Under the pieces are notes generated by a model. It was given only the letters and a program-made list of their open reading frames with translations, made no database searches and had not been told where the DNA came from. This document shows positions 20,426 through 32,091 of a stretch of 33,203 nucleotides of DNA, one piece after another (positions within the stretch are counted from its first letter, which is position 1; each line of letters starts with the position of its first letter). The stretch comes from Flavobacteriales bacterium (lineage in GTDB: Bacteria; Bacteroidota; Bacteroidia; Flavobacteriales_D; Sanyastnellaceae), in assembly GCA_027491215.1 (NCBI GenBank), contig JAIXWP010000035.1:1-33203 (forward strand). The letters run 5' to 3'. Both the position numbers and the translations under genes were made by a program.

Positions 20426-21011
20426 CGGTATTATATTTCATGGAGGGAAAAACGAGCTCACCCCATTTCTCATGCTCATTAGCACCGAAAATCGGAGTAA
20501 ATTGGTATGTGAGTCTTAGTTGAAGACTATCTTGAATATCGCTACCGACGTGTCTTTCATGCATTTCATAAACAAAGTACACCGCCTTGTTATAATCGAA
20601 TGATTTAGTAATAGCATCTAATTTTTGAATACCATTTTCATAGTATAAATTATTTGCAACTACAGAAGAAAGTCCACTGCAAATGCTCTGTTCGATATAC
20701 TCCATGCGGTGTCTGCTATCATAGCCGTAGGTGCTTGTTGCGTCTTGCCAAGACATCCAGTGATCATTTGCTTTAACCCGAAACTCCAACTGCACATCAT
20801 ATGCAGGAACCTCCGGTGCAAACATGGTCCATGACTGATGAAAGAATGGAACGGTATAGCTCGTGCTCAACGCTCGTACAGAAGAAGGGAGTGGAATAAA
20901 ATCAAGCGCATAGATGCCCACCATAATGAAATGGAACGCAAGGACAGCAAGGCCTGCCAAACTGATATAAGTTAGTTTTTTACTCAACTTTTTTCGATGA
21001 GCTACAAACAT
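20415..21011 (-). CDS. DUF5819-like membrane-anchored protein
   Basis: A 198-residue protein with a basic N-terminus, one membrane helix (about 14-35) and a soluble outer part of about 160 residues. FFHQSWTMFAPEVP (about 55-68) matches the F.Q.W..FAP.P signature I associate with DUF5819 proteins, which typically accompany HTTM membrane proteins. The soluble part looks beta-rich (YDVQLEFRVKANDHWMSW, LQLRLTYQFTPIFG). There is no catalytic motif I recognise. It overlaps the HTTM gene by 11 bases and is divergent from fahA, with only 50 bases between the two start codons. That gap contains a perfect palindrome, which may control both. The family call is by motif recall and is moderately sure. Confidence 0.7.
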   Translation of the reverse strand: MFVAHRKKLSKKLTYISLAGLAVLAFHFIMVGIYALDFIPLPSSVRALSTSYTVPFFHQSWTMFAPEVPAYDVQLEFRVKANDHWMSWQDATSTYGYDSRHRMEYIEQSICSGLSSVVANNLYYENGIQKLDAITKSFDYNKAVYFVYEMHERHVGSDIQDSLQLRLTYQFTPIFGANEHEKWGELVFPSMKYNTDVH

Positions 21012-21012
21012 A

Positions 21013-21030
21013 ATCTCAAATCTTTGAGAT
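21013..21030. promoter_or_regulatory. Palindrome between divergent DUF5819-like and fahA genes
   Basis: ATCTCAAA and TTTGAGAT form a perfect 8-bp inverted repeat with a 2-base centre. It begins one base upstream of the DUF5819-like start codon. On the minus strand it contains AAGATTTG, one base off the -7 consensus, so a bound dimer would cover that promoter. A repressor operator is the likely reading; no regulator gene is adjacent. Confidence 0.5.
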
Positions 21031-21061
21031 ACCTTGCAGGCCTCAAGTAAAAAAGAAGATT

Positions 21062-22342
21062 ATGGAAATTTCTGCAAACGATCCACGCCTTAAATCATGG
21101 GTAGATGTCCCACAAGGAAGTGATTTTCCAATTCAAAATTTACCCTTCGGTGTATTTCGTACAGAAAGCCAGTTGCCCCGCGTAGGCGTTGCTATTGGTG
21201 ATAAAATCCTTGATCTTAAAGCACTCCACATTCTAGGATATCTCGAAAATCTGCCTTTTCGTTTAGAAGATTTTCTTGCAGATTCATTGAATCCGATGAT
21301 GAAGCATGGAAAAAAAGCGAGTCGAGATCTTCGCAATCGCATCAGCAAACTTCTTCGTTCTGATATGCCTGATCTTCGCGATCGCGAACATCATGTGAAG
21401 CAAGTGCTCGTGAGTCAATCAGAAGTGCAAATGCTCTTGCCGATTAGAGTGGGCGATTACACTGACTTCTACAGCAGTGAAGATCACGCAAGAAATGTCG
21501 GAACAATGTTTCGCGATCCTGCTAAGGCGCTCCTACCAAACTGGAAACATTTGCCTGTAGGTTATCACGGCCGTGCATCGAGTATTGTGGTGAGCGGCAC
21601 TCCTATCAACAGACCGATGGGTCAAGTGAATCCAAGCGATGATACTCCGCCTACTTTCAAAGCGTCAGGTCAGCTTGATTTCGAGTTGGAAGTAGCTTTC
21701 GTTACTTTCGATGGTAAGCCGATGGGTCAGCGCATCAGCACTGGTGAAGCAGATGATTATATTTTCGGTTTAATGTTGTTCAACGATTGGAGTGCGCGCG
21801 ATATTCAACGTTGGGAATACGTTCCACTCGGACCATTCTTGGCAAAGAATTTTGGATCCACTGTTTCTCCTTGGGTAGTGACGTTGGATGCATTAGAACC
21901 CTTCCGTGTGCCGGGTCCAGTGCAGGATCCAGAAGTATTGCCTTATTTGAAATACGAGGGAAATAAAAATATCGATATCCATTTGGAAGTGGGAATCATT
22001 CCTTCAAATGGACAGGAAACCATCGTTTCTCGAAGCAATTACAAGCACATGTATTGGAATATGACGCAGCAATTGGCGCATCATACTGTCGGTGGATGTA
22101 ATATCAAATGCGGCGATATGATGGCAAGCGGTACCATTTCTGGACCAACCGAAGGATCGTTCGGTTCTATGTTAGAAATCGCTTGGAAAGGAACGAAACC
22201 AGTCGCAATGACGGATGGCTCTACTAGAAACTTTATTCTAGATGGAGATAACGTTGTAATCCGCGGTTATGCAGAAAAAGAAGGTGTGCGCGTAGGATTC
22301 GGAAAGTGCGAAGGAGTAGTACTCCCTGCTATTGAATTCTAA
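21062..22342 (+). CDS. fahA: Fumarylacetoacetase
   Basis: The 426-residue enzyme hydrolyses 4-fumarylacetoacetate to fumarate and acetoacetate, the last step of tyrosine/homogentisate breakdown. Length matches eukaryotic and bacterial FAH (about 420). The small N-terminal domain ends near 120. The catalytic domain shows DYTDFYSSEDHARNVG (132-147) with the metal ligand Asp132, the metal-binding QLDFELE (204-210, E208 and E210), FNDWSARDIQRWEY (240-253, Asp242) and SGPTEGSFGSMLE. Homogentisate dioxygenase (hmgA) and hppD are not in the window, so the pathway genes are dispersed. The gene ends by overlapping the convergent DUF6150-like gene by 4 bases. The palindrome upstream may regulate it. 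Confidence 0.96.
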   Translation: MEISANDPRLKSWVDVPQGSDFPIQNLPFGVFRTESQLPRVGVAIGDKILDLKALHILGYLENLPFRLEDFLADSLNPMMKHGKKASRDLRNRISKLLRSDMPDLRDREHHVKQVLVSQSEVQMLLPIRVGDYTDFYSSEDHARNVGTMFRDPAKALLPNWKHLPVGYHGRASSIVVSGTPINRPMGQVNPSDDTPPTFKASGQLDFELEVAFVTFDGKPMGQRISTGEADDYIFGLMLFNDWSARDIQRWEYVPLGPFLAKNFGSTVSPWVVTLDALEPFRVPGPVQDPEVLPYLKYEGNKNIDIHLEVGIIPSNGQETIVSRSNYKHMYWNMTQQLAHHTVGGCNIKCGDMMASGTISGPTEGSFGSMLEIAWKGTKPVAMTDGSTRNFILDGDNVVIRGYAEKEGVRVGFGKCEGVVLPAIEF

Positions 22343-22674
22343 AAGAAAAAGTGCATTTTTTCTTTGTTCTTCCAACCCGCTTGGCTTTGGTAATTGACAA
22401 AGAAAATTTTCACATCTGCTTGGCTTTCGTAATCCACGAAATAGATTTTCTTTTGAGCCTGACTCGCATATTTTACAAAATGCCATAATCCATTATTGGC
22501 TCCTGCTTGGCTCTCATAATCTACTTTGAAAACAAGCAAGTCTGCTTGGCTTTCATAGTTAACTACAAAGACTTTTACGTCTGCTTGTGACTCATAGTCT
22601 ACTGAAAAAACTTTCTGTGCGTCTGCCTTGATCGACAGCGCAATTAGAAGTGCGAATAGTAGTACTTGTTTCAT
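22339..22674 (-). CDS. Small secreted repeat protein, DUF6150/septoil-knot type
   Basis: From the ATG at 22674 the product is 111 residues: a clean signal peptide (about 1-19, MKQVLLFALLIALSIKADAQ) and a mature part made of six short repeats of the form (K)V(F/Y).V.YESQADV, about 13 residues each. A longer frame begins at 22773 but would put 33 extra residues before the signal peptide, so I reject it. The third repeat is lengthened (AGANNGLW), and the last ends QSQAGWKNKEK. This pattern is that of DUF6150 proteins, since renamed for a predicted 7(1) 'septoil' knot fold; I rely on memory for this. The role is unknown. It overlaps the end of fahA by 4 bases, tail to tail. Confidence 0.8.
   Translation of the reverse strand: MKQVLLFALLIALSIKADAQKVFSVDYESQADVKVFVVNYESQADLLVFKVDYESQAGANNGLWHFVKYASQAQKKIYFVDYESQADVKIFFVNYQSQAGWKNKEKMHFFF
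22379..22611 (-). repeat. Intragenic 39-bp-period repeats
   Basis: Copies of a unit like TCTGCTTGGCTTTCATAATC (plus-strand view) recur with a 39-base step, for example at 22379/22418 and 22542/22581. They encode the 13-residue YESQAD repeats of the protein. One longer spacing corresponds to the extended third repeat. The copies have diverged, so the array is old and kept for the protein. Confidence 0.75.
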
Positions 22675-22714
22675 GATTATAAATGTAGTAAAGTTTCTTA
22701 TTTCTTTTAGCAAA

Positions 22715-22954
22715 ATGAAAATCAATTCCTGCACTCTCCCGTTTGGATTCTTGGTCATTTTAGTGTCTAGCACTTTTCAATTACTAGGCCAAGATTCCCA
22801 AAAGAAAATTTCCTTAAATGCCGAGGTGATACCAATGGTGTATCATTGTCAAACCGTGGCTCTACGAGACTATGTAGAGGATCCTAATGCGATCAAGGAA
22901 ATCACCAAAACAGCCAAACGCATCCTTCTTTCGCGCGCGCATCAGAGATCGTAG
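22715..22954 (+). CDS. Small exported hypothetical protein
   Basis: A 79-residue frame starting at ATG 22715 has a good signal peptide (about 1-24, MKINSCTLPFGFLVILVSST then FQLLGQ). The mature part is about 55 residues and ends ILLSRAHQRS. No domain is recognised. An upstream ATG in frame (22628) would overlap the divergent gene and put the signal peptide inside, so I chose 22715. Only 40 bases separate it from the start of the divergent septoil-knot-type gene. The short mature part, ending in a basic tail shortly before the tmRNA promoter, could also be the remnant of a longer gene. Reality of the gene is moderately supported. Confidence 0.5.
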   Translation: MKINSCTLPFGFLVILVSSTFQLLGQDSQKKISLNAEVIPMVYHCQTVALRDYVEDPNAIKEITKTAKRILLSRAHQRS

Positions 22955-23004
22955 CGATGACATGGAAAGCCTTGATGGGCGGGCTAGATAGAAGCAGAGG
23001 GGCA

Positions 23005-23030
23005 TTGCGTTGAAATAAATGCTACCTTTG
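23005..23030 (+). promoter_or_regulatory. Promoter for ssrA (tmRNA)
   Basis: TTG (23005-23007) and a perfect -7 TACCTTTG (23023-23030) are 15 bases apart. The -7 box ends 11 bases before the mature 5' end at 23042, the expected distance for direct initiation just upstream of the RNA. Confidence 0.75.
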
Positions 23031-23041
23031 CAGAGAATTTA

Positions 23042-23437
23042 GGGCCCGACCTTGGATTTGACAGCGAGATGAATAGCTGTGTAAGCATGCAGAGCGTTTT
23101 GTGTTTTAGCTCTTAAATATCGGAGCACAAGTCAGAGATGACAACAATTCTTACGCGCTCGCAGCCTAATCACCGATTGTGATTACGCCTAATCCCGTCA
23201 AGTTTGGCGGGACGAGTAAGTCTCGTTGCGGACCCCGCTCCTGGTACGTAACATAGAGGCTTCATCAAAGGGAGATCGCCAAAGATGATTCTTGTAGTCA
23301 GCGGCTAAAAACTTCAAGATAAGTGGTACGCTTGGTTGACTGTGGCCTGGCCTCCAACGAAAATTAATTGCAGGATAAGCATGTAGAAAGCTCAGAAATT
23401 CCTTGTTTGGACGCGGGTTCGACTCCCGCCGGGTCCA
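23042..23437 (+). ncRNA. ssrA: tmRNA (transfer-messenger RNA)
   Basis: This one-piece tmRNA of 396 bases rescues stalled ribosomes with SmpB. The 5' end GGGCCCG (23042-23048) pairs with CGGGTCC (23430-23436), including one G-U pair, to form the seven-pair acceptor stem; A23437 is the discriminator. The T-arm is GCGGG-TTCGACT-CCCGC (23413-23429). The 5' part GACCTTGGATTTGACAGCGA is typical of tmRNA tRNA-like domains. CCA is not encoded and must be added. A tag frame lies at 23134-23169. A promoter and a terminator bracket the gene, so it is transcribed alone. The minus-strand frame over it is not a gene. Confidence 0.95.
23134..23169 (+). other. tmRNA proteolysis tag reading frame
   Basis: Read in frame to TAA (23167-23169), the tag ends DDNNSYALAA. 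The C-terminal YALAA is the ClpXP-type degradation signal. By analogy with E. coli, where the resume codon follows GUC, the first codon would be AGA at 23134, giving RDDNNSYALAA after the tRNA-borne alanine. Starting at GAT (23137) is the alternative. Confidence 0.8.
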
Positions 23438-23443
23438 CAAAAT

Positions 23444-23486
23444 AAAAAGGGGAAGAAACATTTAAAAATGGTTCTTCCCTTTTTTT
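23444..23486 (+). terminator. Intrinsic terminator after ssrA
   Basis: GGGAAGAA (23450-23457) pairs with TTCTTCCC (23472-23479), flanked by an A run (23444-23448) and seven T (23480-23486). It begins 7 bases after the tmRNA end. Confidence 0.88.
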
Positions 23487-23526
23487 GTTGGGGGTATACT
23501 TCATGATCTCTTTAAAGCAAAAAGCT

Positions 23527-23697
23527 CTACATCATTGCCTCGAATCCTCTTAGTTTCTCATATGCTTCACTTGGTGTATACCCTTTAAGCACAAACTTTA
23601 TTAGGCTTGGTTGGTAATGCAACGGATACTTCTTGATCTCTTCCATTATTTCTTCTGTCAATGGATTGTTGCTCTTCATGTCTTCTGGCGCTTTCAT
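23527..23697 (-). CDS. Small hypothetical protein
   Basis: A 56-codon minus-strand frame from ATG 23697 to TAG at 23527-23529. The product starts MKAPEDMKSNNPLTEEIMEE and continues through IKKYPLHYQPSLIKFVLKGY to EAYEKLRGFEAMM. It is soluble and helical by composition, without a signal peptide or recognised motif. The amino-acid mix looks like a real protein rather than chance translation, and it is the best frame between the ssrA terminator and the receptor gene. It lies just downstream of tmRNA, a common integration site, so it may come from a lost mobile element; no integrase is present. Family unknown. Confidence 0.5.
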   Translation of the reverse strand: MKAPEDMKSNNPLTEEIMEEIKKYPLHYQPSLIKFVLKGYTPSEAYEKLRGFEAMM

Positions 23698-24116
23698 AAT
23701 TTAGAAATTAGATACTTCAGTTAATATATTCGACTATTTCTTCTTTATATTTTCTTCTGTCATGATGCTAGATCACCCTCAGGGCAAATCTATTTAACTA
23801 TCATTGATAATGCTGAATACAGTTAATCCATATTGCAGCAATTCGAAACACGGTGCGAAGGTATACTGAGTATACCAAATATGTGAATGATCGATACTCG
23901 ATGAAGATGGAAATATTGGTACAGGACGGTAACGGTTGGGTGTGAGAAATTGCAGCGCGGGCCGTCGTTCTAGAGTACCCGTCCCCCTTCATCTTTACAT
24001 TACAATTCGAAATTTTTTGAGGTCGAAATACAAAAAGACATTAGATTCGTAACAGAACCTATATGACAGCACCGCTGTTGTTGGTGTAGGTCTTTTATTT
24101 CTGCCAAATACCTGTT
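23698..24116. other. Gene-poor 419-base gap upstream of the receptor operon
   Basis: No complete gene is seen. A plus-strand stretch at 23817-23945 lacks a start codon but reads as protein-like sequence (for example RRYTEYTKYVNDRYSMKMEI) to a TGA, and may be a decayed gene end. A palindrome lies at 23860-23876. Nearer the receptor gene, ACAGC-ACC-GCTGT (24066-24078) is a small dyad. A weak promoter is possible at TTG 24078-24080 with TATTTCTG 24096-24103, one mismatch from consensus. No second copy of the tmRNA 3' end was found, so there is no clear attachment site. Confidence 0.5.
23860..23876. promoter_or_regulatory. Perfect palindrome GGTATAC-TGA-GTATACC
   Basis: Two 7-base arms with a 3-base centre form a perfect dyad in the gap upstream of the receptor operon. 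It has the size of a dimeric regulator site, but lies 240 bases before the receptor start and is not next to a recognised promoter. Chance or a relic is possible. Confidence 0.3.
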
Positions 24117-27104
24117 ATGATTAAACATCTACTTACGGCCACTCTGGTCTTTCTTTCTTTCTTCGCATTATCCCAAGCTTCGCTGGAAATCCTACTCATG
24201 GACTCGCTCAATGCTCCAGTGGTTGGACAAGGCGTTACTGTTTCCAACGAACAAATCGGATTCGCAAAACAATTCGTCTCTAGTGAAAATGGTAAAGTGC
24301 AAATCGCCGGTCTGAGCACCAGCGGTAAGTACACGGTGATCGTTAGCGAAGGGGGGATCTTCCAAGGCCGCACTCTCACCAATATTTCTCTGATCTCCAA
24401 CAAAACAAAAAGTATATCGGTAGTGCTTTCTGAAAAACTCAATCTGCTTTCTATCGTCACGATCAATGGAAATGATTATCAATCGATCAATACGGTAAAC
24501 GGGGAGGTGGCATCTGAACTCAGCATCAAGGAGCTTCAAGAGCTGCCTGTAGAAGGCCGCGATATCACGCGCGCTTTATATCGTTTACCCAACATAACAC
24601 AAGCAACAGGTTTCTTCCCCGAAGCTCCAAACGTGTCGATCAATGGGGCGAACGCTCTTTATACCAATTATGAAATTGATGGTATGGACAATAACGAGAA
24701 CTTCCTCGGCGGACAACGCTTTGCGATGCCTCTCGGTTTTACCAAAAACATCACTGCTCTCACGAATAATTTCTCTGCAGAACACGGTCTTACTTCTAAT
24801 GGTATTGTAAACATTACCACGCAGTCGGGTACTAACAAAACAAGTGGCGAGGTATTCTACATTATGCGCCCAGGTCCTGCGTTGGATTCTCCTTCTCGCT
24901 ATGCACAAAGAGATCTTTCTGGTAACCAAGTGAAGGATGGCTTCATGCGATACCAAGCGGGATTCGGCATCGGTGGTGCAATTAAAAAGGATAAAACATT
25001 TTATTTCCTCAACGTCGAACACACGACAGATATAAAAGATAATCTTCTCAATATCCCACAATTGGGAATCAATGAAACGGTGAGAGGAAGAAATAATTTT
25101 TCATACATCTCTGGAAAGCTCGATCAACACTGGTCTCCAAAGTTTCACTCATCGCTTCGTGTCAATGTTGGACTGGTGGGCATCGAACGTCAAGGTGGTG
25201 GATTGGAAGGTGGCACTACTTTCAATTCTGCAGGGAATACGCAGACTAGAAATTCTGTGAATATTGCTTTCAAAAATACTTATACCACGGATCGCTATAC
25301 ATATGAAGGAAATTACTCTTTCGGTCGCTTCCATTGGAATTACGCAGCGCCTCTAGATAATCAAAACCCGGATGTATCACTATTGGATCCATCGGGGGTT
25401 TCTATTGGTTTCTTAGGTCACCCTGGCTATGCATTCGAGGATATTGAAGAGACGCATGTGGTGCAACAAAAAATTACGCTCTATCAAGGCAATCACCGTA
25501 TCAAAGCAGGTCTGCAATTGAAGAGCTCTGGATTTGAATTGTATGGCGGCGGTAATCCAAATGGCAGCTACCTCGTGCAATTAAATCAAACACAACTCGA
25601 TGCTCTAGTGGCTTCAGGCATCGGAAGTGCGTTAACTCCACGAGACATTCCATCGGACGTTCAGGTACTTTACTACGGTGTTGAACTGCGTCCCAATTCT
25701 TTTACAAAGCGTCAGAATATTTACAGCGCTCATGTAGAAGATCAGTGGTCGGTAGGTTCTCGTTTGAATGTGAATCTTGGATTGCGATATGACTACGACG
25801 ATCTTTCAAAAGGTGGGTCAAACACAGGAGACATGGACAACATCGCTCCTCGCGTGAGTTTGAATTATGAATTGAACGAACGCAGCGCTATTCGTGCGGG
25901 ATACGGCATGTATTATGACAAAATTCTTTATGCTGTTTACAGTGATGCTGTTCAATTCAATTCCACTTCTACTGATTACCAAGCTCAATTACAAGCGTTG
26001 GTCGATCAAGGAATTTTACCTGCTGATACAAAGATTGAAAACATCATCAACGAAGGAAATTTGGTTGGAACTTCTAATGCTGCTTATTTACAAGGTCCAA
26101 CATCAGGAGATTTACTTGAACAACGTGAGAGTATTTTCCAAAATGAATTGCGCGTTTTGAATCCAAATGGATATGATAATCCGTACAGTCATCAAATGAT
26201 GTTGGGTTACCAGCAAAAGACCAATGAGAACACTACGTTCTATGTGGATCTAATGCACAACAGATCACACAATCTGTTCAGATTGAGAAATCTGAACGCT
26301 CCAGCTGCATACAACATCGACCCTTCAAATGTTGTGGTACAATCTACAACAGCTGCGGATCTAACACGCCCAGTGCCGGTTTACACGGATGGTACAGGTT
26401 CTTACAGCATTATTGATGGAGATACTATTCGCGGCGGTGCACGCAACGTGGTGATGACGGAGAGCGCTGGTCGTTCGAATTATTATGCGATGAATTTCAC
26501 GTTCCAAAAAGACAAGGGGGATGATAAGTATGCATTCCGTTTGATGTACACCCTTTCATTTTTGGAAAACAATACGGAGGATATCAACTTCCGCGCAATG
26601 GATGGCAACGATTTCGAAGCAGAGTGGGGTCCGTCGATCAATGACAGAACGCACTTGATCAACGGTATCGTGAATTACTATCCAGTGAAGAATCTTACAT
26701 TGACTCTTGCAGCATTGATCCAGAGCGGTCAGCCGATCAATCGTATTCCTGACGCTGCGGTTTATGGAACAACAGATTTAAATGGTGACGGCCGTGCATT
26801 TGGTGATGCATATGTTGGAAACAGCGACAGACACCCAGGAGAGGATCGAAATAGCGATCGCTTGCCATGGTCAAACACATTTGACTTAAGCGCGCTGTAT
26901 CGTATTCCTATGAAGACATCTGGAAGTTTTGAAGTAGGTGCTCAAGTGTTCAATATATTGAATGCAGAAAACTTGAGTGGTTATTCTAACAATGCACGAC
27001 AAAGCAACCAAGTGCAAACAGGAAGCGCTGCATCTGGTTTGTTGGTTCGCAGAAATGCTGCACCTCCACGTCAGTTTCAGTTCTCAGTGAGATATACTTT
27101 TTAA
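24117..27104 (+). CDS. TonB-dependent receptor with carboxypeptidase-like N-terminal domain
   Basis: A 995-residue outer-membrane receptor of the Oar-like type. It has a signal peptide (about 1-20, ending FFALSQ), a carboxypeptidase-regulatory-like beta-sandwich (about 22-108) and a plug domain (about 125-235). The plug includes LQELPVEGRDITRALYRLPN, the NYEIDGMDNN stretch and the closing GIVNITTQSGTN. A long beta-barrel runs to the terminal phenylalanine (QFQFSVRYTF), as expected for BAM-inserted barrels. Energised by TonB, such receptors import scarce or large compounds. No SusD-like lipoprotein follows, so it is not a standard SusCD glycan system. Instead a complete YnjBCD-type ABC importer starts 28 bases downstream, suggesting outer- and inner-membrane steps of one uptake route. 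Ligand unknown. Confidence 0.92.
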   Translation: MIKHLLTATLVFLSFFALSQASLEILLMDSLNAPVVGQGVTVSNEQIGFAKQFVSSENGKVQIAGLSTSGKYTVIVSEGGIFQGRTLTNISLISNKTKSISVVLSEKLNLLSIVTINGNDYQSINTVNGEVASELSIKELQELPVEGRDITRALYRLPNITQATGFFPEAPNVSINGANALYTNYEIDGMDNNENFLGGQRFAMPLGFTKNITALTNNFSAEHGLTSNGIVNITTQSGTNKTSGEVFYIMRPGPALDSPSRYAQRDLSGNQVKDGFMRYQAGFGIGGAIKKDKTFYFLNVEHTTDIKDNLLNIPQLGINETVRGRNNFSYISGKLDQHWSPKFHSSLRVNVGLVGIERQGGGLEGGTTFNSAGNTQTRNSVNIAFKNTYTTDRYTYEGNYSFGRFHWNYAAPLDNQNPDVSLLDPSGVSIGFLGHPGYAFEDIEETHVVQQKITLYQGNHRIKAGLQLKSSGFELYGGGNPNGSYLVQLNQTQLDALVASGIGSALTPRDIPSDVQVLYYGVELRPNSFTKRQNIYSAHVEDQWSVGSRLNVNLGLRYDYDDLSKGGSNTGDMDNIAPRVSLNYELNERSAIRAGYGMYYDKILYAVYSDAVQFNSTSTDYQAQLQALVDQGILPADTKIENIINEGNLVGTSNAAYLQGPTSGDLLEQRESIFQNELRVLNPNGYDNPYSHQMMLGYQQKTNENTTFYVDLMHNRSHNLFRLRNLNAPAAYNIDPSNVVVQSTTAADLTRPVPVYTDGTGSYSIIDGDTIRGGARNVVMTESAGRSNYYAMNFTFQKDKGDDKYAFRLMYTLSFLENNTEDINFRAMDGNDFEAEWGPSINDRTHLINGIVNYYPVKNLTLTLAALIQSGQPINRIPDAAVYGTTDLNGDGRAFGDAYVGNSDRHPGEDRNSDRLPWSNTFDLSALYRIPMKTSGSFEVGAQVFNILNAENLSGYSNNARQSNQVQTGSAASGLLVRRNAAPPRQFQFSVRYTF

Positions 27105-27132
27105 TAGTTGAACTTTCAAACTTTGAGCATTC

Positions 27133-28344
27133 ATGAGATACGGTCTTCTATTTCTCGTTTCGATCATTCTTGCTTCTTGCGGGAATACCCCACAGGACGG
27201 CGATTCCGACGTTTCAAAAAAATCATGGGAACAAATTGCTGCTGATGCAAAAGGTCAAACTGTGACCATGATGATGTGGCAAGGAGATCCTTTGATCAAT
27301 AAATACATGACAGATTTTGTGGTGCCGCAAGTCAAATCGAAATACAATATTCAACTCAACATCGTCGGTGGACAAGGCAATGCAATAGTAAGCGCGCTGA
27401 TGTCGGAAATGGAAGCGGGGAAGGAGAAGAGTGAGTTAGATATGATGTGGATCAATGGAGAAACATTTTTTCAACTAAGAGAAATTCAAGCATTGCATGG
27501 ACCATTCGTTGAGCAATTGCCCAATAATAAATTCTTGAATTGGGAGAATGAATTCATCAGTACGGACTTCCAACAATCTGTGAATGGAATGGAATGTCCT
27601 TGGGGAAATGTTCAGATGGCGTGGATTTATGACAGCACTCGTGTTCAGCAACCGCCTATGAATATGGCGCAATTAGCGCAGTGGGTGAAAGCGAATCCTG
27701 GCAAGTTTACTATACCAAATGAATTTACTGGAATGACTTTGTTGAAAGCTTGGCTCATCGAATTATCAGGTTCAAAAGATGGATTGAAAGGTCCTTTCAA
27801 TGAAGCGCGATACAAGGAGTTGAGTGAAAAGCTTTGGACGTATATCAACGATATAAAACCATATATGTGGAATGAGGGCAAGTCTTTTCCTGCAGGTGTT
27901 TCTCAGTTGCATCAATTGTTGGTAAGCGGAGAAGTAGCGTTTTCACTGAGCAACAACGACGCGGAAGTAGATAATAAAATACTACAGGGTATTTTTCCAA
28001 AAACATTTAAAGCATACGTCCCGAGTGGTGGAACCATTCAAAATTCTCATTATCTCGGTATTGTAAGTCGCAGTGCTCACAAAGAAGCCGCGATGGTCGT
28101 ATGCAATTTCATGATTTCACCTGAAGCTCAATTTGAAAAGATGAAACCAGACGTTTGGGGCGATGCAACAGTGCTCAACATTGACAAGCTGGAAGGTGAT
28201 TGGAAAGAAAAATTCAACAATATTCCCGGCAGATCGAACGCGCCTAAGCGCTCAGAGATTCAACAATATGCATTGATGGAACCGGCCGCGGAATACATGA
28301 TTCGACTCTTTGAAGATTTTAGAAAACAAGTGATAGAAAAATAA
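27133..28344 (+). CDS. ynjB: YnjB-type ABC transporter solute-binding lipoprotein
   Basis: The 403-residue protein is a lipoprotein: the lipobox LASC puts the lipidated Cys at residue 16 (MRYGLLFLVSIILASCGN). The mature part resembles the YnjB family of solute-binding proteins (COG4134): a WQGDPLINKYMTDFVVP opening, LDMMWINGETFFQLR, ECPWGNVQMAWIYDS, and FTGMTLLKAWLIELSG near mid-sequence. The family is distantly related to thiamine-, iron- and polyamine-binding proteins, but its ligand is not established. It lies 28 bases after the receptor gene. Its stop is directly followed by the first permease's TTG start, so the two are translationally linked. The gene symbol reflects family membership only. 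Confidence 0.88.
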   Translation: MRYGLLFLVSIILASCGNTPQDGDSDVSKKSWEQIAADAKGQTVTMMMWQGDPLINKYMTDFVVPQVKSKYNIQLNIVGGQGNAIVSALMSEMEAGKEKSELDMMWINGETFFQLREIQALHGPFVEQLPNNKFLNWENEFISTDFQQSVNGMECPWGNVQMAWIYDSTRVQQPPMNMAQLAQWVKANPGKFTIPNEFTGMTLLKAWLIELSGSKDGLKGPFNEARYKELSEKLWTYINDIKPYMWNEGKSFPAGVSQLHQLLVSGEVAFSLSNNDAEVDNKILQGIFPKTFKAYVPSGGTIQNSHYLGIVSRSAHKEAAMVVCNFMISPEAQFEKMKPDVWGDATVLNIDKLEGDWKEKFNNIPGRSNAPKRSEIQQYALMEPAAEYMIRLFEDFRKQVIEK

Positions 28345-29190
28345 TTGCAAGGCTTCAAGAAAAATAGCGCTGTTTTTTTATTCATTGCGATTGCTGTGGT
28401 GCCTGTTCTCTGCGGCTTTATCTATAGTTTACTGTACAGTGTGGGCTTGGCCGGCTTGTTAGGCAAAGGTTTTACTTTAGAGCATTGGGAAAAATTGTTG
28501 GCTTCTAGTGATGGCCTGATGTCTATTGGTTATACGTTTTACTTAACGATTACCACTATAGCACTCTCCATGATAATGGCGTTTGCTTATGCATGGTATC
28601 ATTTTCGACAACCGAGTGAACGTTCGGTTTCAAAATTGTATTTGCCACTTTTATTTCCCCCTCTTGTAGCTGGAATGGCGTGGTACTTTGTATTGAGTCC
28701 AAGTGGATTACTTTCGAGGTGGTCCTATGCATTAGGATTTATTCAACGTGTGGAAGATTTTCCTAGATGGGTCAATGACGATTTTAGTTTTGGAATTATT
28801 CTCACACAATTCTTCTTAGTGTTTCCCATTTTTACGCTTTTATTTTTAAATATTTCTAAGAAAGAAAATCTGCGTGAGCTATATCGTACGGCTTTGCATT
28901 TAGGCGGGGACAAACGCTATTTTTTCAAAAATATTTTCCTTCCAATCCTTTGGTCTAAAGGCAAATGGGTGGTAGTGCTCTATGCAATATTTTTAATGGG
29001 AACCTATGAAGTGACGTTGATTCTTGGCCAAACGAATCCAAGAACGATCACAGTTTTTATCATGGAGAAATTGAGCAAGTACAACTTGAATGACATACCT
29101 CAAGCTCATGCGATGAGCGTGTTGTACTCAACGATGATGCTACTTTTTATGATGATTCTTTTTAGATTAAAAAATTGGAGAATAGCATGA
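28345..29190 (+). CDS. ABC transporter permease, YnjC/ThiP type, first subunit
   Basis: A 281-residue inner-membrane protein with about six to seven helices. The cytoplasmic EAA-type loop LYRTALHLGGDKRYFFKNIF shows where the ATPase docks. The frame has no ATG until well inside the second helix region. A TTG at 28345, immediately after the YnjB stop, is the only start that keeps the first helix (about 7-30). In E. coli the YnjC permease is one double-length protein of about 510 residues; here its halves appear as two genes. The end overlaps the second permease gene by 16 bases. The pair would form the heterodimeric channel for the YnjB-bound substrate. Confidence 0.85.
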   Translation: MQGFKKNSAVFLFIAIAVVPVLCGFIYSLLYSVGLAGLLGKGFTLEHWEKLLASSDGLMSIGYTFYLTITTIALSMIMAFAYAWYHFRQPSERSVSKLYLPLLFPPLVAGMAWYFVLSPSGLLSRWSYALGFIQRVEDFPRWVNDDFSFGIILTQFFLVFPIFTLLFLNISKKENLRELYRTALHLGGDKRYFFKNIFLPILWSKGKWVVVLYAIFLMGTYEVTLILGQTNPRTITVFIMEKLSKYNLNDIPQAHAMSVLYSTMMLLFMMILFRLKNWRIA

Positions 29191-29954
29191 GAAGACTGTT
29201 GCAAATAGTATTGTTGTTGCTAGTTCTTTTGCCTGCAGTAGTTCTACTATGGCTTTCTTTAGCGAAAGAAATAGGCTACCCATCTTTCTTTGATTCGAGC
29301 TTTACTTTTGATTTCTGGAAGAATGTTTTTACTGGTGGAGAAGGATTGTTGAAGAGCTTACTTTGGTCATTGGGTATCGCCTTTTTTGTAGCCATGGTAT
29401 CGACTGTTTTTGGATTTATAATTTCAAAAAAAATAGCGTCGTCTGATTTTGGACAACGCAGTTTACAATTGGCTTACTTGCCCTATTTGATTGCACCAGT
29501 TGTCCTTGGCGCGATGTTGCAGTTTTATTTCACACGATTGGGCTGCACAGGAAGTGTAATCGGAGTTATGATGGCACAATTGATCTTTATTATGCCTTAT
29601 GCAGTGCTCGTCTTCTCCGGGTTTTGGACACCACATATCAAACAATTGGCGTTTCAGGCTACAACATTGGGTGCGTCAAATTATTATGTTTTGCAACATA
29701 TCGTCTTACCAGTAGCGAGGTCTTGGTTTTTCCTTACTTTCTCACAATGTTTTTTAATTTCATGGTTTGAGTACGGAATTACAGAATTGATAGGAGTGGG
29801 AAAGGTGCAAACACTGACGATTAAGTCGATGGTATATGTTAAGGAGTCGAGTCCTCAATATGGCGCTGTCGCAGCCTGTATGATGATTATTCCAGTGCTA
29901 TTATTGTTCGTGATTAATTCACGTGTATTTTTAAAGAAGGAAGTGGAAGGATGA
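29175..29954 (+). CDS. ABC transporter permease, YnjC/ThiP type, second subunit
   Basis: A 259-residue membrane protein with about six helices. The first (about 7-27) is very leucine-rich (LLQIVLLLLVLLPAVVLLW). The EAA-type loop AFQATTLGASNYYVLQHIVL, ending in LPVARSW, contacts the ATPase. It matches the second half of YnjC-like double permeases. The gene overlaps the first permease by 16 bases and the ATPase gene by 4 bases, so stoichiometric synthesis is likely. No binding or catalytic domain is fused. Substrate is unknown and would follow that of the solute-binding lipoprotein. Confidence 0.87.
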   Translation: MENSMRRLLQIVLLLLVLLPAVVLLWLSLAKEIGYPSFFDSSFTFDFWKNVFTGGEGLLKSLLWSLGIAFFVAMVSTVFGFIISKKIASSDFGQRSLQLAYLPYLIAPVVLGAMLQFYFTRLGCTGSVIGVMMAQLIFIMPYAVLVFSGFWTPHIKQLAFQATTLGASNYYVLQHIVLPVARSWFFLTFSQCFLISWFEYGITELIGVGKVQTLTIKSMVYVKESSPQYGAVAACMMIIPVLLLFVINSRVFLKKEVEG

Positions 29955-30682
29955 TTGTACTAAAAAATATCACCAAGAAATATCAAGGAAAATCGGTACT
30001 TTTTGATTTGAGTTTGGAAATTTCCGAACACGAAACAATGTGCATTCTTGGCGTGTCTGGTTGTGGAAAGAGTACGTTGTTGAAGGTGATGGCTGGCTTG
30101 GAATTGGCGGATGGAGGAAGTTTTGAGATGGAGGAACAACACGTTTTTGATATTCCAGCTGAGAAGCGCGGCATTGTTTATATGAGCCAGGAACCATTGT
30201 TATTTCCTCATTTGAATGTATTTGAAAATATCGCGTTTGGCTTGCGCGTGCGAAAATGGACGAACAGTGAAGTTGAAGAAAAAGTAAATGCATTGGCAAC
30301 TCGTTTAGGACTCACAGAAGAATTGATGAAGATGCCACATCAGTTATCAGGTGGACAAAAGCAGCGCGTCAATTTCGGACGATCGTTGATCATTGAGCCG
30401 CGATTGATTTTGCTCGATGAGCCTTTCGGAAGTTTGGATAGCCAGACAAGAGCTGAGATGCAACAGTTGTTTCATGATGTAAGGAAAGAGAAGAAGATTA
30501 CAGCACTCTTTGTAACGCACGATATAAAAGAAGCGCTAATCATGGGCGACCGAATTGCGAGAATGGATAAAGGACAGTTAAAAGTTTATCCTAACTCAGG
30601 GGCATTTTTGAATAGTGGGGATGATGATGTTGTAAAAGAACTTTCATTTTGGAACGGTGTCATTAATGGAGAGATGATTTAG
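29951..30682 (+). CDS. ynjD: ABC transporter ATP-binding protein, YnjD type
   Basis: The 243-residue ATPase powers the two permeases. All motifs are intact: Walker A GVSGCGKS (34-41), Q-loop Gln80 (YMSQEPLLFPH), signature LSGGQ (132-136), Walker B LILLDEP (152-158) with Asp156/Glu157, D-loop SLD and switch His190 (VTHD). It has no C-terminal regulatory (TOBE) domain, consistent with the short YnjD/ThiQ group rather than sugar or iron importers of about 350 residues. Its ATG overlaps the second permease stop (ATGA). A 114-base gap with an inverted repeat separates it from the radical SAM gene, so the transport part may end here or read through. Confidence 0.92.
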   Translation: MIVLKNITKKYQGKSVLFDLSLEISEHETMCILGVSGCGKSTLLKVMAGLELADGGSFEMEEQHVFDIPAEKRGIVYMSQEPLLFPHLNVFENIAFGLRVRKWTNSEVEEKVNALATRLGLTEELMKMPHQLSGGQKQRVNFGRSLIIEPRLILLDEPFGSLDSQTRAEMQQLFHDVRKEKKITALFVTHDIKEALIMGDRIARMDKGQLKVYPNSGAFLNSGDDDVVKELSFWNGVINGEMI

Positions 30683-30690
30683 TTTGTTTT

Positions 30691-30715
30691 TTTTGAGAAC
30701 TAATGTTCTTCAAAA
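30691..30715 (+). repeat. Inverted repeat between ABC operon and radical SAM gene
   Basis: TTTTGAGAAC (30691-30700) and GTTCTTCAAAA (30705-30715) pair around TAAT with a single bulged base. The T run lies before the stem, not after, so it is not an ordinary plus-strand terminator. It could be an operator or a mild attenuator separating the ABC genes from the two downstream genes. Confidence 0.5.
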
Positions 30716-30795
30716 TGAGAGTAATGGTTTTTATGTCGGGTTCACTAAATGTGAGTTTGTGGGCCCTTGTCTTAGTAAGATTTAAAGTAGAGTAG
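30703..30795 (+). CDS. Possible 30-residue hydrophobic peptide
   Basis: A short frame from ATG 30703 to TAG at 30793-30795 encodes a hydrophobic peptide (MFFKMRVMVFMSG, then SLNVSLWALVLVRFKVE). It ends one base before the radical SAM start codon. A membrane mini-protein or a leader peptide coupling translation is possible. It lacks the Cys/Gly-rich core of most radical-SAM-modified peptides. Chance is a real alternative. Confidence 0.25.
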   Translation: MFFKMRVMVFMSGSLNVSLWALVLVRFKVE

Positions 30796-30796
30796 A

Positions 30797-31726
30797 ATGA
30801 ATAAGTTTGATCATATCGAGTCAGTGTATTGGGTGTTTACACAGTTGTGTAATGACAAGTGCGATCATTGCTATAATATGTCAGGGCCACAAGGAGAGCG
30901 CATTTCAGAAGAGGATTGCATGGCCATCATTGAGAATCTTCCATCCTCAATTGATCGTTTGATCTTATCAGGAGGTGAGCCAATTGCGGATAAGAAAAAG
31001 CTATACATGATCCTCGATCGATTGAAGGAAAAATATCAAGGCAAGACTCAGATCATGTTACAAACGAACGGGGATCTCTTAACTGATGAGATCTTGGATA
31101 CCTTGATCGAGAAAGGAGTGACCCGATTTGACATCGCGAGCATTGATCGTTATCATAAAGCTGCCGGAGGGCGTATCATGCAGCTCGCAGAGTTGTTTGA
31201 ATCGCGAGGTGTGAACGGTGAAGATCGCGATCCACTCGTGACGAAAGATAATTATGTAGTGGAACACGAATTGAGCTGGGGTTACTGGGGCGCGACAGAA
31301 GAGATGTGGCTAGGAGGCAATTGGGCGCGTGGTAGAGCGTATCAAAAGAACATTTGGTTGAAGGACCCCAATCACAACTTCTGTGGGATCCTTTCTGGTG
31401 CTGTTGGCTTTTTGAATGGCGCCGATAACATTCCTCAAGAAATTTCTATTCAACTTTATAAAATCAATCCCTGCTGTCCAGGAACAAAAGAAGCGCTCGG
31501 GGATGCTCGCGTGCAAAAAATTTCAGATGTGTTGGAGCGTATTTCAACACACCCCGTATTTGAAAAACTTGACAAAGGAGATCCTTATCGGATGGGCGAA
31601 TCAGTGGGTGTTTCGGAAGAGCATGCTCGCAAGAGATGCGGTGAATTGAAAAATGTATGTCTTTGGTGCGATGAGTTTTTCGATCAGCACTTTGATATCA
31701 AAACATTATCAAAGAAAGAGTCATGA
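30797..31726 (+). CDS. Radical SAM protein with extra cysteines
   Basis: A 309-residue soluble protein with the radical SAM cluster motif C18xxxC22xxC25 (QLCNDKCDHCYN), the SAM-binding SGGEP (58-62) and the usual partial barrel to about 190. The C-terminal region carries Cys196, Cys226/Cys227 (NPCCPG) and C281-x6-C288-x2-C291, enough for an auxiliary iron-sulfur cluster as in twitch/SPASM-type enzymes, although the spacing does not match a full SPASM domain. A Trp/Tyr/Gly-rich stretch (WGYWGATEEMWLGGNWARGR, 161-180) is unusual and may face the substrate. I do not recognise the exact family. It overlaps the following CxxC protein gene by 4 bases. Lying behind a TonB receptor and YnjBCD importer, it may process the imported compound, which is inference. 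Confidence 0.9.
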   Translation: MNKFDHIESVYWVFTQLCNDKCDHCYNMSGPQGERISEEDCMAIIENLPSSIDRLILSGGEPIADKKKLYMILDRLKEKYQGKTQIMLQTNGDLLTDEILDTLIEKGVTRFDIASIDRYHKAAGGRIMQLAELFESRGVNGEDRDPLVTKDNYVVEHELSWGYWGATEEMWLGGNWARGRAYQKNIWLKDPNHNFCGILSGAVGFLNGADNIPQEISIQLYKINPCCPGTKEALGDARVQKISDVLERISTHPVFEKLDKGDPYRMGESVGVSEEHARKRCGELKNVCLWCDEFFDQHFDIKTLSKKES

Positions 31727-32091
31727 ACGAGGAGAGAGAGTTTATTTTAATTTATAACGCTGATTCAGGTAAATGGAATGGCTACATGGATATGATGCAT
31801 AAAGTATTCAGTCCGAAAACTTATCCATGTCATCTCTGTGCTATAACTTATGGAGTATTCAAAATTGAAGATGATTGGAAGGAGTTCATTAAGGAATATC
31901 CGGTGCCATTGATTTTTCTTCATCGCGATGAATGGCTTGAGCAGCATTCATTTGCTACGGCTTTGCCGGCAATTGTAGAACGCAATAGTGGAGGATATAG
32001 AGTTATTCTCTCACCGGAGAAAATGAATACTATGGATTTGCCGGCTTTAAAATTATTTATGAAAAAAATGGCGTCAAGCGCGACCGCGTAG
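31723..32091 (+). CDS. Small conserved-looking CxxC protein
   Basis: A 122-residue soluble protein. Its N-terminal half contains LIYNADSGKWNGYMDMMHKV (9-28) followed by FSPKTYPCHLCAITYGVF (29-46) with C36xxC39. I recall similar small proteins in Bacteroidota and other phyla with the same YNADSG and CxLCxxTYG pattern, but no assigned function. The middle (PLIFLHRDEW) and end are alpha/beta in character. A thioredoxin-like fold is conceivable, since the fold order and CxxC would allow it, but the CxxC is far from the first strand and redox activity is not shown. The start overlaps the radical SAM stop (ATGA), so the two proteins are made together. Confidence 0.82.
   Translation: MNEEREFILIYNADSGKWNGYMDMMHKVFSPKTYPCHLCAITYGVFKIEDDWKEFIKEYPVPLIFLHRDEWLEQHSFATALPAIVERNSGGYRVILSPEKMNTMDLPALKLFMKKMASSATA

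Follow-up and report, generated by a model that had tools for sequence, protein, structure and literature searches.

A TonB receptor, a YnjBCD-type importer and a radical SAM enzyme form a conserved unit that may feed an arsenosugar-type pathway in a Flavobacteriales bacterium

What does a bacterium take up, and what does it make of it, when genes for a TonB-dependent receptor (TBDR), a YnjBCD-type ATP-binding cassette (ABC) importer, a radical S-adenosylmethionine (SAM) enzyme and a small CxxC protein lie in one block? We addressed this question for positions 24117-32091 of contig JAIXWP010000035.1 of a Flavobacteriales bacterium (assembly GCA_027491215.1), the whole stretch analysed being the 33,203 nt at positions 1 to 33,203 (hereafter, the window). 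A first-pass annotation had described the block as a single uptake-and-processing system for a compound not yet named. We find that the TBDR, the YnjB-type binding protein, both permeases, the ATPase and the radical SAM enzyme (hereafter, rSAM) are one conserved unit. On balance, we favour a reading in which this module for uptake and conversion supplies the rhodanese-TIGR04282-PNP pathway and substitutes for its TIGR04169-ArsS step; the bacterium probably imports from outside what its ArsS-bearing relatives make themselves.

A conserved unit around the radical SAM gene

The block holds seven open reading frames (ORFs) on one strand, overlapping or separated by short gaps, and both these ORFs and the families assigned to them in the first-pass annotation were confirmed:

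24117-27104, plus strand: TBDR (995 aa) with an Oar-like barrel (PF25183) and a CarboxypepD_reg domain; not SusC
27133-28344, plus strand: YnjB-type lipoprotein substrate-binding protein (403 aa), lipobox LASC
28345-29190, plus strand: ABC permease 1, by NCBIfam permease similarities under cut-off and by conserved position; equals one half of E. coli YnjC
29175-29954, plus strand: ABC permease 2, by NCBIfam similarity and conserved position; 16-nt overlap with permease 1
29951-30682, plus strand: YnjD-type ABC ATPase (243 aa; PF00005, 106.6 bits)
30683-30796, plus strand: 114-nt gap between the ATPase and rSAM genes, derived in the window's genome
30797-31726, plus strand: rSAM (309 aa; PF04055, 55.7 bits), core plus Twitch/SPASM-like C terminus
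31723-32091, plus strand: CxxC protein (122 aa), weakly thioredoxin-like, without a Pfam or NCBIfam family

Relatives were collected with the rSAM protein as query, which gave 18 distinct loci including the window's (Bacteroidota, Ignavibacteria and Chlorobiota). The ATPase gene lies next to or near rSAM in all 18, YnjB is present at 16/18 and a TBDR, 51-68% identical to the window's, at 15/18; the exceptions are a rearranged locus (L021), one with other genes in place of the TBDR (L024) and one at a contig end (L036). Among 299 genomes of the same order, rSAM was found in seven and a YnjB-like protein in eight, with both in six and always adjacent (Fisher p = 2e-10, phylogeny not corrected), while the seventh rSAM genome (G026) carries rSAM with both permeases and the ATPase on a 4.3-kb contig. 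rSAM is furthermore the best conserved protein of the block (mean pairwise identity 0.69, compared to 0.36-0.58 for its partners). The grouping is not by chance. The rarity of joint occurrence between rSAM and the receptor and ABC genes, named beforehand as grounds for abandoning the idea of one system, was looked for and not seen.

The 114-nt gap before rSAM, which had left the membership of the last two genes undecided, is real and contains no convincing terminator and no supported Bacteroidota promoter; because the same gap in relatives mostly measures -14 to 11 nt, it is a local, derived change in the window. rSAM belongs to the unit. The CxxC gene is an optional accessory, since it follows rSAM in 4/18 loci only and occurs elsewhere in unrelated contexts (those in G049, G056 and G058 indicate no single function). 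The single-system description thus stands for six genes and is uncertain for the seventh, whose product has weak Foldseek matches to thioredoxins (best E 6e-3, TM 0.46).

The TBDR scores above cut-off for two Pfam families (PF25183, 170.6 bits; PF00593, 39.2 bits), with its plug domain slightly under (23.0 bits, cut-off 23.9). It is not of the SusC/RagA type, as it has no NCBIfam match (TIGR04056/TIGR04057; the SusC of L101, used as a control, scores 573.7) and no SusD gene alongside; as the first-pass annotation had stated, SusD, siderophore synthesis and reductase genes are all absent from 24117-32091. The binding protein scores 379 bits for NF008633/PRK11622 (curated cut-off 203). rSAM is placed in the radical SAM superfamily by PF04055 and by its CX3CX2C cluster motif (C18, C22 and C25), which is invariant in a 17-sequence alignment (A1) together with five cysteines of the C-terminal part (C196, C226, C227, C288 and C291), candidate ligands for the auxiliary [4Fe-4S] cluster that Twitch domains bind through four Cys. 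Among the 25 best-scoring NCBIfam families, no curated cut-off was passed. The predicted model (pLDDT 84) matches BtrN (4m7t) best, followed by CteB-type enzymes, EpeE, viperin and others, with modest TM-scores. A viperin-like defence role was rejected, as the PADLOC match (44 bits) is to the rSAM core only.

A few features of individual loci deserve mention. In the Hymenobacter sp. BRD67 copy (L023 1617-9847), the TBDR, permease and ATPase genes are split by frameshifts, from decay or sequencing error, and rSAM is intact. L028, from a metagenome-assembled genome labelled Armatimonadetes, has the gene order of the Chlorobiota locus L027, and its taxonomic label may be wrong. Five loci (L021 5793-7078, L023 7830-9096, L027 10993-12269, L028 and L029) carry two adjoining, highly conserved proteins of ~210 aa each beside rSAM or the ATPase, with no Pfam, NCBIfam or PDB family and only a weak DUF4350-like signal.

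The TIGR04282 cassette and the absence of ArsS

Arsenosugar biosynthesis has its own radical SAM enzyme, ArsS, which is accompanied by rhodanese, TIGR04282 and PNP, and the cassette (rhodanese-)TIGR04282-PNP is annotated by NCBI as part of that pathway. All rSAM genomes of the order retain canonical TIGR04282 (7/7) and none has ArsS (0/7); across the order, ArsS occurs in 94/299 genomes, 86 of which also have canonical TIGR04282, a tight linkage (p = 3e-48). Within the window's family (f1), complementarity is perfect: the TIGR04282-bearing genomes divide into 13 with ArsS and without rSAM and 7 with rSAM and without ArsS, none having both and none neither (p = 1.3e-5, phylogeny not corrected). 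Such a two-class split is the signature of two routes leading to a single function, and it recurs as a contrast within two genera, g1 (G000 vs G002) and g12 (G266 vs G013 and G032).

Gene order makes the contrast concrete. In G002, from the window's own genus, the order is TIGR04169-ArsS-rhodanese-TIGR04282-PNP-HDAC-like. The window's genome carries rhodanese-TIGR04282-PNP on another contig (TIGR04282 189.5 bits, cut-off 134) with the same flanking genes, TIGR04169 and ArsS being absent from the spot, and no ArsS was found in that genome. Four other rSAM genomes have a full DUF547-rhodanese-TIGR04282-PNP cassette and no ArsS, and G017 and G026 have partial cassettes at contig ends. An independent case is Psychroflexus halocasei (L030), where an upstream ORF, TBDR, YnjBCD, rSAM, rhodanese, TIGR04282 and PNP follow one another in a single run. 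TIGR04282-type genes also lie within the block at the Saprospiraceae-type loci L024 (197.8 bits) and L025 (79% identical to that of L024), and at L021 an ArsM-like methyltransferase gene (190 bits, under the cut-off of 263) directly precedes rSAM. The first-pass annotation mentioned neither this pathway context, a probable replacement of ArsS beside rhodanese-TIGR04282-PNP, nor the upstream ORF of probable arrest type that is found in relatives but not in the window (described below).

Orthology of rSAM to ArsS was rejected, homology being limited to the radical SAM core. TIGR04167 is not among the 25 best NCBIfam families for rSAM and no DUF3641 domain is present; rSAM aligns to the ArsS profile over 48 columns only, and the sequence CNxxCxHCxxxxGP, which surrounds the cluster motif, is common to the two enzymes.

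Candidate ligand, proposed steps and competing explanations

Sister loci bear on the ligand. G050 encodes YnjBCD without rSAM, adjoining nucleoside hydrolase and MTR-kinase-like genes, and G057 encodes a receptor with 49% identity to the window's TBDR beside genes of the same two kinds; both genomes have a rhodanese-TIGR04282 pair without PNP. A nucleoside hydrolase and a kinase would together yield a ribose-1-phosphate type product, as PNP does. Because paralogues of both receptor and importer adjoin such genes, the context suggests a 5-substituted riboside as the ligand. Adenosylation of methylated arsenic by ArsS has been established (PMC8552651, PMC12159101), which makes arsenosugar-type ribosides the leading candidate, with the presence of arsenic itself inferred.

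Assuming inward transport, the TBDR would take a 5-substituted riboside (an arsenosugar-type compound), or a precursor of one, through the outer membrane. The YnjB lipoprotein and the importer of two permeases and ATPase would then carry this ligand into the cytoplasm, where the putatively Twitch-type rSAM may turn it into a form usable by TIGR04282 and PNP, whose genes lie at another place in the genome. Because of the hydrolase and kinase contexts, we rank remodelling of an imported riboside by rSAM slightly higher than replacement of the ArsS reaction itself.

Several observations weigh against this reading. TIGR04282 without ArsS also occurs in seven further genomes in which rSAM is missing and the tests made revealed no other substitute (G037, G038, G258, G268, G310, G312 and G344), and the complementarity, spread over 5 genera, derives from few independent events. 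The window contains no arsenic gene, and no genome-wide ArsM search was made. The NCBI pathway name derives from ArsM/ArsS work in cyanobacteria, not Bacteroidota. Finally, some distant YnjBCD relatives stand beside CDP-alcohol phosphatidyltransferase, TVP38 and FAD oxidoreductase genes and others in sugar kinase and aldolase contexts; the importer family is thus not restricted to a single ligand.

The best-surviving alternative, which we nevertheless consider unlikely, takes rSAM to be a non-orthologous ArsS: a methylated arsenical would be imported, rSAM would join it to a 5'-deoxyadenosyl group and PNP would cleave the resulting nucleoside. The occurrence of rSAM exactly where ArsS is missing and PNP retained would fit this scheme, as would the ArsM-like gene adjoining rSAM in L021, the cluster motif common to both enzymes and the adenosylation of arsenic by ArsS (PMC12159101). 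The short alignment and missing DUF3641 argue against it, however, and the nucleoside hydrolase and MTR kinase beside YnjBCD and TBDR relatives indicate ribosides rather than small methylarsenicals; the fold matches of rSAM, moreover, are Twitch dehydrogenases and epimerases.

Less probable than that is a pathway that does not concern arsenic, in which the block would serve salvage of 5'-deoxy- or 5'-methylthio-ribosides and the TIGR04282/ArsS-type genes another 5-substituted ribose product. The hydrolase and kinase partners in G050 and G057 are consistent with such salvage, as are a nucleoside hydrolase beside YnjBCD in Peptoclostridium and the lack of any arsenic resistance gene seen at the loci, but the arsenic function of ArsS has been demonstrated (PMC8552651, PMC12159101) and the ArsS/rSAM complementarity is specific. 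Lower still we place the view that the anticorrelation with ArsS is a lineage accident, the block serving to import some other, unrelated nutrient (metallophore, vitamin, polyamine or sugar) that rSAM modifies. The small number of independent events, the weak resemblance of the ABC subunits to molybdate, thiamine, polyamine and phosphonate importers (NCBIfam) and the sugar-type clusters of distant YnjBCD relatives would accord with an accident. Against one stand the contrasts seen inside two genera, a syntenic spot from which TIGR04169-ArsS is cleanly missing, the Psychroflexus operon and the presence of the same family of upstream ORF (described below) at the head of ArsS operons. That an ordinary importer has the radical SAM and CxxC genes beside it merely by chance is highly improbable despite the 114-nt gap in the window and the optional CxxC gene, as the only locus in which rSAM does not adjoin the importer is a rearranged one and the ORFs mostly overlap or almost touch, and for rSAM the idea is refuted by locus conservation and by co-occurrence in the order genomes.

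Siderophore, glycan polysaccharide utilization locus, ribosomally synthesized and post-translationally modified peptide and standard cofactor readings were rejected, with no partner genes in the 18 loci and no fitting curated radical SAM family among the 25 best-scoring NCBIfam families. In the literature searched, we found no paper on bacterial arsenosugar uptake genes and no established YnjBCD ligand; the locus is a testable candidate for both questions, having a single binding protein and a single radical SAM enzyme and contrasting clearly in its genetics with ArsS strains of the same genus.

Other YnjBCD settings were also recorded. Plasmid records (L040, L042-L045 and L047) commonly place YnjBCD with TVP38/TMEM64, FAD oxidoreductase, CDP-alcohol phosphatidyltransferase, AhpD-like or rhodanese genes, which suggests a lipid head-group link in other phyla; these plasmid contexts of YnjB indicate no single function. 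At L061 (G324), a YnjBCD relative without rSAM clusters with Dak1/Dak2, DeoC/LacD aldolase and sugar-isomerase genes and is by context a polyol or sugar importer.

Upstream ORFs, flanking sequence and known systems

Twelve other rSAM loci, and the YnjB gene of G050, are headed by an ORF of 220-280 residues, a TIGR04282 homologue that scores under the family cut-off (73.6 vs 134 bits) and lacks the KTRL motif. These glycosyltransferase-like (GT-like) proteins have no evident signal peptide and end in a C-terminal R[AG]PP or similar, the next gene starting 11-184 nt downstream. The window has no such ORF, nor any tblastn trace of one in 21001-27200, and we therefore treat the family as context rather than as part of the finding. 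A profile search of the 299 genomes recovered ~20 further members of this TIGR04282-derived family, preceding SusC-SusD-symporter-phosphoesterase loci, a receptor-MTR kinase-nucleoside hydrolase locus and TIGR04169-ArsS operons (G016, G053 and G059). The presence of one family ahead of both the block in relatives and ArsS operons counts in favour of the uptake-and-conversion reading. A strict R[AG]PP end is present in 20/30 GT-like upstream ORFs compared to 0/603 control ORFs, and the motif lies 42-48 residues beyond the domain end, though the tail is just 17% identical.

RAPP/RGPP upstream ORFs before TonB receptors are a known class (CruR, PMC9426467; survey, PMC12992588), which the survey describes as mostly secreted proteins, with no mention of glycosyltransferase-like ones. 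The GT-like ORFs are probable arrest-type regulators, a family not found in the literature searched; with them, RAPP-type regulation would cover not just the sensing of metals and secretion but also sensing by an enzyme-derived domain. Tentatively, the Bacteroidota arsenosugar-type pathway may have two interchangeable entrances, synthesis (TIGR04169-ArsS) or uptake (TBDR-YnjBCD-rSAM, or receptor/importer with nucleoside hydrolase and MTR kinase), both controllable by one new regulator in which a glycosyltransferase-derived domain, tethered ~46 residues from an R[AG]PP ribosome-arrest tail, would sense a pathway metabolite on the ribosome in riboswitch-like fashion; the window would then be an uptake entrance without the regulator. 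This possibility is distinctly more doubtful than the uptake-and-conversion reading itself.

Examples of the GT-like ORFs are found at L019 2624-3328, L033 3277-3972 and L096-L115 (~30 loci), upstream of TonB receptors, YnjB or TIGR04169-ArsS. A conserved SusC-SusD-sodium symporter-metallophosphoesterase cluster, each time headed by a GT-like R[AG]PP/RGSP ORF and in ArsS-positive genomes, recurs at L096, L099-L103, L105-L108, L110-L112 and L115 (L102 is cut by a contig end).

Upstream of the block, the window contains a tmRNA gene (23042-23440) and, between it and a fumarylacetoacetase gene, a small repetitive minus-strand ORF of repeated YESQAD units (22339-22773). In G002 (L064 2702-4252), a serine recombinase and mobile-element-like genes are found at the tmRNA 3' end instead. 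The idea that the block had integrated there as a mobile element was rejected, as the tmRNA 3' end is not repeated in the window or genome, direct repeats are absent and G+C is even.

Among known systems, the Twitch enzymes BtrN, SpeY and EpeE resemble rSAM in predicted fold and in one auxiliary Cys cluster, putative in rSAM, but at TM-scores of about 0.3-0.6 and 13-18% identity the rSAM substrate cannot be read from the fold. The E. coli ydjXYZ-ynjABCDEF locus shares the substrate-binding family (PRK11622/NF008633) and likewise combines binder, permease and ATPase in one importer, with no established ligand in either case. In E. coli, however, the YnjC permease is fused and the partners are TVP38, AhpD-like, rhodanese and CDP-alcohol phosphatidyltransferase proteins, whereas in the block the permease is split over two genes and the partners are a TBDR and a radical SAM enzyme; with YnjA-, YnjE- and YnjF-type neighbours absent from the window, it is not an E. 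coli-type YnjBCD operon. In the Bordetella CruR/DUF2946-BfrG copper uptake operon, an upstream ORF with a C-terminal RAPP controls the downstream TonB receptor, with 45 residues from sensor motif to RAPP (PMC9426467), a spacing close to the 42-48 residues in relatives of the block. CruR is a small exported CXXC protein, whereas the ORF of those relatives has a cytosolic glycosyltransferase-like domain and the window has none. The arsenosugar operon TIGR04169-ArsS-rhodanese-TIGR04282-PNP differs in lacking an importer and in an ArsS (TIGR04167, DUF3641) homologous to rSAM in the core only, yet it occurs in the same genomes and families with the same downstream cassette, and the block is found where TIGR04169-ArsS is missing.

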